NCBI RefSeq assembly: GCF_000964085.1
Contig: NZ_JZRB01000031.1
Span: 1-48,400 of the forward strand
Source: Luteibacter yeojuensis
Lineage (GTDB): Bacteria; Pseudomonadota; Gammaproteobacteria; Xanthomonadales; Rhodanobacteraceae
Direction of reading: 5' to 3'
DNA length: 48,400 nt
Position 1 is the first letter of the stretch, and each line of letters opens with the position of its first letter. Both the position numbers and the translations under genes were made by a program. Of the stretch, positions 25,184 to 28,013 are shown in pieces. Under the pieces are notes generated by a model that saw only the letters and a list, made by a program, of their open reading frames with translations, was not told where the DNA came from and did not search any database.

Positions 25184-25259
25184 GGGTCGTTAGCTCAGTC
25201 GGTAGAGCAGCGGACTTTTAATCCGTAGGTCGACGGTTCGAATCCGTCACGACCCACCA
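25184..25259 (+). tRNA. tRNA-Lys (anticodon TTT)
   Basis: A 76-base tRNA with encoded CCA (25257-25259). Acceptor arms GGGTCGT and ACGACCC pair fully; the D arm GCTC...GAGC, anticodon stem GCGGA/TCCGT with loop CTTTTAA (anticodon TTT at positions 34-36) and T arm GACGG-TTCGAAT-CCGTC are all intact. A sigma-70 promoter precedes and a hairpin terminator follows. In related bacteria it lies next to queC; here about 2 kb of accessory DNA intervenes. Confidence 0.98.
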
Positions 25260-25306
25260 TTTTGCCCAAGGCCAGCCATTCCCCGTGCCGTTCCCGGCCG
25301 GGTCGC

Positions 25307-25336
25307 ACGCCACCGCCTAGCCGGTGGCGTCGCCTT
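25307..25336 (+). terminator. Intrinsic terminator after tRNA-Lys
   Basis: A 9-bp stem, ACGCCACCG (25307-25315) with CGGTGGCGT (25322-25330), and a six-base loop, followed by CGCCTTTT. It ends the tRNA transcript about 50-75 bases beyond the mature 3' end. Confidence 0.8.
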
Positions 25337-25484
25337 TTCCAGGCCATGGATATTCGCGCGACTTCCGGTTCGCCTACACGACGTGTCGGCATTCACGTCA
25401 TGCCATCGGGCGACATTCTCACAAACCTGCACTGGCATTCCGAGTACGCTGGTCTCCCTTCACCGTGCACGAAAGGAGGCCGTC

Positions 25485-25838
25485 ATGCAGGCACGTGAGT
25501 CGTTTTACCGGTTGAGTGAACTCAACACCGTCCTGGAAAAAGTCGCGACCCGAAGCGAGTTGCAGGCGCTCTCCGCGCGTGTCGATGATCGCTTCGAGCA
25601 GGTCGATAAGCGCTTCGAGCAAGTCGATAAGCGCTTCGTACAGGTGGAGGCGCGGCTTGATCGCGTCGAAACGCGGATGGATCAGATGACGGCCACGTTG
25701 GCCACGCTCGAAGATCGCTCGCGGCACGGCGCGACGCGTTCGTGGGTGCTCAGTGGTGCCGTCTGCGCGCTCGTCGGCCTACTCGGCTGGCTTAGCCGCG
25801 GGCAGTTGTTCGCGGGGCTGCAGTCCGCCGGCCTTTAA
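25485..25838 (+). CDS. Small coiled-coil protein with C-terminal membrane anchor
   Basis: A 117-residue protein not recognised as a named family. Residues about 15-80 form a coiled coil made of near-perfect tandem heptads (RFEQVDK, RFEQVDK, RFVQVEA, RLDRVET, RMDQMTA), also visible as a direct repeat in the DNA (cgcttcgagca...gtcgataag). Residues about 88-108 (SWVLSGAVCALVGLLGWL) form a single membrane span near the C-terminus. AAAGGAGG ahead of ATG 25485 is a strong ribosome-binding site and decides the start. Similar small coiled-coil/tail-anchor proteins occur near prophages and mobile regions. It lies in the accessory stretch between tRNA-Lys and the bacteriocin; a link with the bacteriocin is not shown. 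Confidence 0.75.
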   Translation: MQARESFYRLSELNTVLEKVATRSELQALSARVDDRFEQVDKRFEQVDKRFVQVEARLDRVETRMDQMTATLATLEDRSRHGATRSWVLSGAVCALVGLLGWLSRGQLFAGLQSAGL

Positions 25839-25872
25839 CGTCAGGCGTACCGGGTCACATCCGGCACGTCAT

Positions 25873-25924
25873 CGAAGGACTACACAGCGCGCTGCATTGC
25901 ACCGTCAGGGCGTGTAGTCCTTCG
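25873..25924. repeat. 13-bp perfect inverted repeat upstream of the bacteriocin gene
   Basis: CGAAGGACTACAC (25873-25885) and GTGTAGTCCTTCG (25912-25924) are exact reverse complements with a 26-base spacer. No T-run follows, so it is a weak terminator candidate; it could be an RNA leader hairpin or a binding site for the bacteriocin gene, which starts 67 bases later, or the end of the upstream gene. The intergenic stretch 25839-25990 holds nothing else recognisable except AAGGAG at 25978-25983. Confidence 0.7.
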
Positions 25925-25990
25925 CCGCTTCTGGCGCCACTACGCAAAACCTAGCATCTCACCTTCGTTCACGAACCAAGGAGATGCGCC

Positions 25991-26935
25991 ATGTCGGTCA
26001 CCCCACTCGCTCCTGTGCCGGTCTTCGGCTACACCAGTGATCCTTTCTACGGGCTTGGAAACAACGCGGCGTACAACGGCACCCGAGTCCAACCTGGGCC
26101 GATCATGCCTCCCAGCATGGCCGGGCTGCCGCCCATGAACCACGAGTTCTACGGAAAATGTGCGATGACCAACGGCGAGAAGGTCTTCGAGGCGGCACTG
26201 CGCGGTGATCCGCTCGGCACCCTCACCGCTTTCTTCGAAGGACTCAGCGCACGAGACGGCCACTTCGCACTCGGCCAACTCTTCATCTGGAACAACCTCC
26301 AGGTTGTCCTCGGGGAAGGGTACAACCGGCCTATCGCCGCCAACGAGGCCGGCCTACTCGCTCCGAACGGGCGCTTGGCCATCACCCATCTTGCGGGTCT
26401 TTACGTTACACGCGCTGGCAACGCACCAGTTGAAATCAAGAACCCTGCATTCGACTTCTGGGGCACGCCCTTGATGTCCATTGCGGGCATCTACTATTGG
26501 GTTGCGGGTGGCGGAAAGTCGCGCCGCGTCCGCATTGCTTCGCTGGGGCTGCACCTCGTTCCGCGCGACTTCGAACCGGTGCAAGACATTCTTCAGAATG
26601 CGCTGAATGGCCCCGGCCTCTACGAGATTTCGGGCCCATTCGAGCACAACACGTTTGATCACGGAATTCAGGACGTCTGGGCCGCTGGATTGATCGGGCG
26701 TGTCAAGGGATGGGTAACCGGCAAACTGGAGATCCGAGCGGACCATAGCTATCAGTTCAACGGCAGTTTTACGCTCGCGCCTGACACCTACGACGCAGGC
26801 GCTGGCAATCGTCCTTTTGCACAGGAGGCCCTTACGAGCTTTCTCGCAGGAATCGGGAACACACTCGGGTACAAAGATTACGATATCGAATTCGTCGGCG
26901 AGCAGGCTGTCGAGGGCTCGGGGGTGCGGTGGTGA
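25991..26935 (+). CDS. Colicin-M-family bacteriocin (lipid II-degrading)
   Basis: A 314-residue protein whose C-terminal half lines up with colicin M. Shared landmarks in order: an Ala/Tyr/Trp-rich helix (IAGIYYWVAGGGK) then RIASLGLHL (compare colicin M NIANIGLKI), VQDILQNAL, a GKLEIRADHSYQFNG strand pair (compare GTLTISANGSWTYNG), the catalytic D-x-Y-D at Asp265, Tyr267 and Asp268, and a tail QEALTSFLAGIGNTLGYKDY. Colicin M cleaves undecaprenyl-pyrophosphate-linked peptidoglycan precursor in the periplasm of the target. There is no signal peptide, as for colicins. The N-terminal 60 residues are Pro/Gly-rich and likely serve uptake; no colicin-type ETLTV TonB box is seen. The His-Arg pair after D-x-Y-D is altered. 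ATG 25991 follows AAGGAG by seven bases. The next gene is a Cmi-like immunity protein, overlapping by 4 bases. Confidence 0.85.
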   Translation: MSVTPLAPVPVFGYTSDPFYGLGNNAAYNGTRVQPGPIMPPSMAGLPPMNHEFYGKCAMTNGEKVFEAALRGDPLGTLTAFFEGLSARDGHFALGQLFIWNNLQVVLGEGYNRPIAANEAGLLAPNGRLAITHLAGLYVTRAGNAPVEIKNPAFDFWGTPLMSIAGIYYWVAGGGKSRRVRIASLGLHLVPRDFEPVQDILQNALNGPGLYEISGPFEHNTFDHGIQDVWAAGLIGRVKGWVTGKLEIRADHSYQFNGSFTLAPDTYDAGAGNRPFAQEALTSFLAGIGNTLGYKDYDIEFVGEQAVEGSGVRW

Positions 26936-27288
26936 AGGTCCATGTGCTCGCGCGTGCCACCATCGTCGTGTTGGCATGGCTTCTCGGTGGATGCCACCCG
27001 ACCCCGCCGGTTACGGCGGAATGCAGGGCGTGGACACCTGCGGACGTGAGGCAGCACGTCCTCAACCATCTTCGACGAAAGAACGAGTTCGGCACCAAAA
27101 ACCCGGGCGCACTGACCGCCGATGACGTCATCGCCATCGGGCCCGTGTCGCTTGGCAAGGCAAGCGGGCTCTGGACATTCCCCTTCCGTGTTGAGGGCAC
27201 CCGCGACTACAACGCGCTGGTGGATTGCGAGGGTTACACGGAATTGACCGGCGTGCCTGTCCCGCCGAGTTCTTCGATCAAGCATTGA
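26932..27288 (+). CDS. Cmi-like immunity lipoprotein for the colicin-M-type bacteriocin
   Basis: A 118-residue protein resembling the colicin M immunity protein Cmi. After a lipoprotein signal peptide (lipobox LLGGC, Cys21) come two cysteines, Cys31 and Cys99, at positions like the Cmi disulfide pair. Segments PFRVEG and DCEGYTEL mirror Cmi PFKAEG and HCEEGYVEY (recalled). Cmi is anchored in the inner membrane facing the periplasm, where colicin M acts; here the anchor would be lipid rather than a transmembrane helix. The start is GTG 26932, whose GTGA overlaps the bacteriocin stop; GTG 26929 is an alternative. The overlap fits obligatory toxin-immunity coupling. Confidence 0.8.
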   Translation: MKVHVLARATIVVLAWLLGGCHPTPPVTAECRAWTPADVRQHVLNHLRRKNEFGTKNPGALTADDVIAIGPVSLGKASGLWTFPFRVEGTRDYNALVDCEGYTELTGVPVPPSSSIKH

Positions 27289-27291
27289 AAG

Positions 27292-27318
27292 GGTTGCCAG
27301 CGCACCGGGCTGGCAGCC
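27292..27318. terminator. Hairpin between the immunity gene and queC
   Basis: GGTTGCCAGC (27292-27301) pairs with GCTGGCAGCC (27309-27318) with one G-T wobble. It lies 3 bases after the immunity stop and 11 bases before the convergent queC stop. There is no T-run on either side, so it may be a Rho-assisted or weak bidirectional terminator. Confidence 0.5.
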
Positions 27319-27329
27319 GCCCCGCGACC

Positions 27330-28013
27330 TCAGACGTAGCGCGTAACGTCCGGCACGCCTGCCTTGGCGAAGCCCTCCGCGCGCAGGCGGCAGGCATCGC
27401 AGTGGCCGCAGGCGCGGCCTTGCGCGTCGGCCTGGTAGCAGCTGACCGTCTCCGCGAAATCCACGCCCAGGCGCACGCCTTCGGTCACGATATCGCCCTT
27501 GCCCATCTTCATCAGCGGCGCGTGGATGCGGATGCCCGCGCCTTCCACGCCGGCCTTCGTCGCTACATTTGCCAGCGTTTCAAAGGCCTCGATGAAGGCC
27601 GGGCGGCAATCGGGGTAGCCGGAGTAGTCCACGGCGTTGACGCCGCAGAAGATGTCGTTCGAGCCGAGCACTTCGGCCCAACCCAGCGCGATCGACAGCA
27701 TGATCGTGTTGCGCGCGGGCACGTAGGTGACGGGGATGCCTTCGCCGCCATCCTCCGGCACGTCGATATCGGCGGTGAGGGCCGAGCCGCCGATGCTGCG
27801 CAGGTCAACGTGCACGGTCTTGTGCGCCACGGCGCCCAGCAGCTTCGAGACGCGCTCGGAGGCCTCCAGTTCGGAGCTGTGGCGCTGGCCATAGGCCACG
27901 CTGAGCGCATAGACCTCGAAGCCCTGTTCGCGCGCCATGGCGATCGTCACGGCGGAATCCATGCCGCCCGAAACGAGGATGACGGCCTTGGGGGTGGGGT
28001 TCGGAGCGTTCAT
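27330..28013 (-). CDS. queC: 7-cyano-7-deazaguanine synthase QueC
   Basis: A 227-residue cytosolic enzyme that makes preQ0 from 7-carboxy-7-deazaguanine with ammonia and ATP in queuosine biosynthesis. The PP-loop SGGMDS is at 15-20 and the zinc site uses Cys192, Cys202, Cys205 and Cys208 (CGHCDAC). The upstream queE gene ends 16 bases before this start, so they form an operon. ATG 28013 is preferred over longer frames that overlap queE. Confidence 0.96.

Follow-up and report, generated by a model that had tools for sequence, protein, structure and literature searches.

The active site of ColM toxins has been printed as the motif DxYD-x5-HR, and in colicin M of Escherichia coli the change of D226, Y228, D229, H235 or R236 to alanine leaves less than 2% of the activity (PMC8469651). 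The motif nevertheless varies among accepted members of the family (PMC5821083). ColM-beta bacteriocins, which comprise burkhocins M1 and M2 of Burkholderia and proteins of Pseudomonas, Stenotrophomonas and Luteibacter, have the PF14859 domain in common (PMC4661593, PMC5821083). The burkhocin BurM2 carries the motif DKFDADSSNR, kills, and is inactive once the aspartate is changed; according to its authors the histidine corresponding to that of colicin M is absent from burkhocins, and a low G+C content was reported for the burM genes (PMC4661593). ColM-beta toxins followed by an immunity gene that lies on the same strand and encodes two cysteines were described in Stenotrophomonas and Luteibacter in 2018 (PMC5821083), and a lipoprotein signal typifies the PmiB immunity proteins of Pseudomonas (PMC5277000). 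In print, the beta-type immunity lipoproteins form a separate periplasmic immunity domain that is not alignable with Cmi, the immunity protein of colicin M.

The window, which is the whole stretch of 48,400 nucleotides of Luteibacter yeojuensis DNA that was analysed, contains an ORF (25991-26935) and a lipoprotein gene that very probably constitute a toxin/immunity pair of the ColM family. The published descriptions of ColM-beta toxins and of PmiB proteins therefore place the pair within a described kind. A sequence-only reading had presented it as a sizeable extension of the family, a view that does not hold, as ColM-beta toxins of Stenotrophomonas and Luteibacter were already in print (PMC5821083). 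The features are the following, where G011 designates the genome of one other species of the genus, in which a homologous pair was found.

25978..25983, plus strand: Shine-Dalgarno-like AAGGAG ahead of the toxin ATG at 25991, read from the sequence
25991..26935, plus strand: ColM-type toxin gene, 314 aa, ATG start (ORF, PF14859, colicin M in the PDB, G011 homologue)
25991..26461, plus strand: N-terminal part of the toxin, residues 1-157, presumed from its position to serve translocation and receptor binding (conserved in G011)
26462..26929, plus strand: ColM catalytic domain, residues 158-313 (PF14859 profile positions 130-281 of 281)
26783..26812, plus strand: active-site motif DTYDAGAGNR (DxYD-x4-NR), residues 265-274 (alignment with G011 and nine plasmid or phage relatives)
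26932..27288, plus strand: candidate immunity lipoprotein gene, GTG start (ORF, G011 homologue beside the toxin, profile kinship with Cmi/YebF-like proteins)
26983..26994, plus strand: lipobox LGGC with lipidated Cys21, predicted by eye from the sequence

The lipoprotein ORF ends at 27288 and can start at either of two GTG codons, 26929 or 26932. With the GTG at 26932 the two genes overlap by four bases (GTGA, at the toxin stop), as had been proposed; the start at 26929 is also possible. No promoter was found by a promoter scan, and PADLOC returned no match for the toxin or the lipoprotein. At 25873-25924, between the toxin gene and the coiled-coil gene that precedes it, there is an inverted repeat of 13 bp without mismatches, its arms 26 bases apart; the arrangement of its 12-bp core occurs once in the genome, and the repeat is possibly a regulatory element or a terminator.

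Compared with Pfam, the toxin matched PF14859 (Colicin_M) over residues 158-313 with an E-value of 1.2e-14 and 54.5 bits, twice the curated cut-off of 27, so that the profile search proposed for this protein gave a significant match. Among PDB sequences the best match was colicin M (E 3e-10), followed by pectocin M2 (1.6e-7) and pectocin M1 (1.4e-6), and these matches cover about the same stretch as the Pfam match. The resemblance of the C-terminal half to colicin M, first noticed by inspection, is thus well above chance. The same part was matched by PHROG 37466 (E 1.7e-9), and NCBIfam gave no toxin match at E up to 10. When the toxin was compared by tblastn, at E up to 1, with collections of plasmid and phage sequences, 18 plasmid records and 2 phage records (one of them weak) were found; nine relatives from these 20 records were aligned, and their catalytic domains are 23.5-32.2% identical to that of the toxin.

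The active site follows the beta layout. The toxin motif, DTYDAGAGNR, and that of the G011 homologue, DTYDVGASNR, align four of the five essential residues (D265, Y267, D268 and R274 of the toxin). The D-x-Y-D reported earlier is therefore present, whereas the classical DxYD-x5-HR is not: the spacing is one residue shorter, Asn precedes the Arg, and the counterpart of His235 is absent. Spacing and Asn-Arg ending are those of BurM2. Because BurM2 shares this layout and kills, the motif points to a toxin of the ColM-beta type rather than to a dead enzyme. In the nine plasmid or phage relatives the spacing is x5 throughout; His is present at the motif in five of them and replaced in four (by Phe, Tyr, Lys and Lys), D, Y, D and R being kept. 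These four are the ColM-type proteins L008, L034, L037 and L038. His235 is thus less universal than the review of the family suggests, since relatives that lack it retain the other residues. That the catalytic domain is dead for want of His was considered and made less probable by BurM2 and by the four His-less relatives, which may or may not themselves be active; the missing His is more likely the mark of a type than proof of inactivity.

Searches of Pfam, NCBIfam and PDB sequences with a limit of E 10 left the N-terminal part (residues 1-157) unmatched, and a ferredoxin-like receptor part of the kind present in pectocins was rejected for lack of a Pfam match in this region. The tblastn alignments to colicin-M-type proteins of Klebsiella begin at residue 115. 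By eye, the toxin contains neither an export signal or signal peptide nor a TonB box of the form D-T-x-x-V. Beta-type boxes differ in print, and a D/G-T-x-x-V stretch was seen by eye in seven of the nine plasmid or phage relatives. A structure model of the toxin made from one sequence had a mean pLDDT of 31.3, too low for a comparison of folds.

The lipoprotein resembles the PmiB type in carrying a lipoprotein signal (LGGC, by eye) and two conserved cysteines. It had been said to contain two cysteines, which is true apart from the lipidated one; the total is three (C21 of the lipobox, C31 and C99), of which C31 and C99 are conserved in G011. Its gene (26932-27288) lies on the strand of the toxin, as expected of a two-cysteine periplasmic immunity gene of the ColM-beta type, and the mature domain measures about 97 residues. 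A Cmi-like character had also been claimed for it. Aligned by hhalign with six immunity-like proteins, it gave a probability of 94.5%, or 92.0% when the signal peptides were removed, and none of 200 shuffles scored as well; with four rows the probability was 75.4% (0/200 shuffles as good). With the two Pantoea/Rahnella rows the score was no better than that of shuffles (2/200 as good), the G011 lipoprotein sequence alone gave 10.5% against the four rows, and the lipoprotein against one Cmi-like row gave 4.8%. Cmi ranked first in the comparison of the structure model. With this model and a limit of E 10, Foldseek gave 111 matches, none of them significant (best E 0.74, none at 0.001), and Cmi was absent among the best 50 of these 111.

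The Pfam search did not bear out the Cmi-like character: PF13995 (YebF) did not match the lipoprotein even with the limit set at E 10. In a second search, with a limit of E 1, it again left the lipoprotein unmatched but matched four of the eight rows of an eight-row alignment. In the PDB, Cmi was matched at E up to 10 neither by the lipoprotein sequence nor by a two-row profile. The eight-row profile does match Cmi in the PDB, a result that was not counted as evidence because the profile itself holds Cmi-like rows. In conclusion, hhalign and the model ranking make a distant kinship with Cmi likely, although a Pfam YebF match is absent. Whether beta-type ColM immunity lipoproteins in general are strongly diverged proteins of the Cmi/YebF fold is a broader proposition, to which we give even odds; the listings from searches of the open-access literature showed no paper that connects the immunity proteins of beta-type toxins with the Cmi fold.

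The pair had been placed next to tRNA-Lys. The tRNA gene (TTT anticodon) is indeed present, at 25184-25259, but the adjacency is loose, as it lies about 730 bp upstream of the toxin gene and a gene for a coiled-coil protein (25485-25838) stands between them. Downstream of the lipoprotein gene, on the opposite strand, is a gene (27330-28013) that we take to be queC. queC was found in all 23 genomes of the genus, and its neighbourhood was compared in 20 of the 22 others, G007 and G016 being left out. A full tRNA-Lys was present in 18 of these 20 neighbourhoods; one (L057) had none, and in the other (L039, of G011) there was a lone 52-bp 3' part. The interval from tRNA-Lys to queC ranged from 27 bp to 4661 bp among the 20 loci measured, window included, and its cargo differed; the interval (window 25260-27329) is therefore a variable site. 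The coiled-coil gene recurs in 6 of the 20 other loci of the genus, five of which lack the toxin. The G011 pair is flanked by the lone tRNA-Lys end on one side and queC on the other. The last 52 bp of the tRNA stand there alone (L039:3458-3509), no whole tRNA being found at that place, as expected if they were the scar of an element that had integrated in the tRNA upstream. In 500-base steps, the G+C content of the window was 0.600-0.628 over 25250-27249, lower than in the flanks; the remaining steps between 23000 and 29749 gave 0.644-0.738, save 0.626 in the last.

The pair is rare in the genomes swept. The G011 toxin homologue is 69% identical over 314 columns, and the lipoprotein homologue beside it, in the same gene order and at the same site, is 48% identical. 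The toxin gene was found in 2 of 101 genomes of a set of relatives, namely the window's own and another of its genus, and class-wide in 1 of 369, again the window's own. Sweeps with PF14859 gave 2/233 in the family, 1/398 in the order, 1/398 in the phylum and 0/91 in one other genus of the order; these sets overlap, and the matches are the window's genome and, in the family sweep, G011. All 14 control genomes were silent in these sweeps, and the sole positive control was the window, the 0/91 sweep having none. Each species was represented by one genome, and carriers at the strain level are missed by such counts. The lipoprotein was detected in 3 of 232 family genomes. One of these, G132 (E 5.1e-4, residues 14-60), was set aside as a chance match, being antisense within a long transporter-like ORF; the remaining two also carry the toxin, so that among the family genomes the lipoprotein was found solely alongside the toxin. 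No swept genome other than the window's own and G011 contained the pair, and no plasmid matched the lipoprotein at E up to 1. Pattern scans gave 47 and 32 matches in genome contigs and 36 and 145 in viral contigs, none of which is a relative; the patterns were short and built from the two known sequences, so that distant relatives may have escaped them, and records close to the window's genome were possibly left out.

The best explanation of the locus is a bacteriocin of the ColM-beta type with its immunity lipoprotein, and we consider it highly probable. The toxin would be released by lysis of some of the producer cells, no export signal having been recognized by eye. Residues 1-157 would bind an outer-membrane receptor on related bacteria and bring the toxin into the periplasm, and uptake may be narrow in spectrum. 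There the ColM domain, its D265 holding a metal ion, would cleave lipid II where the undecaprenyl chain joins the pyrophosphate, which would stop peptidoglycan synthesis; by analogy with the family, lipid II cleavage is probably the chemistry of the toxin. The producer would be protected by the lipoprotein, pictured as a Cmi-like domain that has a C31-C99 disulphide, is anchored to a membrane from the periplasmic side and blocks the toxin.

Three rival explanations were weighed. The ColM domain might bind lipid II or the membrane without cutting, any toxicity then resulting from binding. The absence of His235 is compatible with this, a pectocin M1 mutant that does not degrade lipid II may still lyse cells (PMC5821083), and according to a review of 2021 cleavage of lipid II had not yet been assayed with any burkhocin (PMC8469651). 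The four other catalytic residues are kept in both homologues, however, and also in the His-less plasmid relatives, which makes binding alone unlikely. As to the lipoprotein, a small lipoprotein gene downstream of a toxin gene is also what is expected of a colicin lysis (release) protein, and the immunity role is here a prediction. Colicin lysis proteins are, however, much shorter than the approximately 97 residues of the mature domain; this length, the likely kinship with Cmi and the existence of immunity proteins, the PmiB proteins, that are likewise lipoproteins and measure about 100 aa (PMC5277000) make a release function very unlikely.

Delivery by a contact-dependent machine, either a type VI secretion system (T6SS) or the bacteria-killing type IV system (T4SS) of Xanthomonadales, rather than as a free bacteriocin, would agree with an N-terminal part unlike those of characterized bacteriocins. 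There is a precedent in the DUF3289 protein, a ColM homologue proposed with its immunity protein DUF943 as a T6SS effector pair (PMC11148199); it has in common with the window toxin a ColM-like domain that is expected to act on the cell wall but belongs to a different Pfam family. The VipB/TssC sheath gene (PF05943) was not found in the window's genome (0/1, the E. coli control being positive), so that a T6SS was not recognized there and the case for a T6SS effector was lowered. In T4SS effectors of the Xanthomonadales group the signal is C-terminal, a place taken here by the end of the toxin's ColM domain. We regard contact-dependent delivery as very unlikely.

Taken as a ColM-beta bacteriocin and its immunity lipoprotein, the pair can be set beside the described systems. 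With the burkhocins it shares a low-G+C gene pair (PMC4661593), whereas the window toxin lacks a signal peptide, as judged by eye, does not continue C-terminally past the domain, and has Tyr at the motif position where they have Phe. The ColM-beta systems of Stenotrophomonas and Luteibacter, likened to it by their published description, have the same downstream two-cysteine immunity gene on the toxin's strand (PMC5821083). PmiB of Pseudomonas, also compared by description, has in common the size of about 100 aa, the lipoprotein signal, the two cysteines and the position beside a beta-type toxin (PMC5277000). With colicin M and Cmi of E. coli the pair shares a homologous catalytic domain and a partner likely of Cmi kinship; the toxin differs from colicin M by the lack of His235 and, by eye, of a TonB box, and the partner differs from Cmi in being a lipoprotein encoded on the same strand, Cmi being anchored by a transmembrane helix and usually encoded on the opposite strand (PMC5821083).

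The locus thus adds a further ColM-beta pair, which two species carry at one and the same place in the chromosome. Among ColM toxins it is nothing unusual as an antibacterial lead. The one new element is the apparent distant kinship of the candidate immunity protein with Cmi. The pair offers a clean case for asking whether a His-less ColM enzyme cuts lipid II, and whether periplasmic ColM immunity proteins have one common fold. Should the beta-type lipoproteins indeed be diverged proteins of the Cmi/YebF fold, a single ancestral toxin-immunity pair would lie behind both alpha and beta toxins, and one mode of blocking would suffice for enzymes whether or not they have the catalytic histidine.
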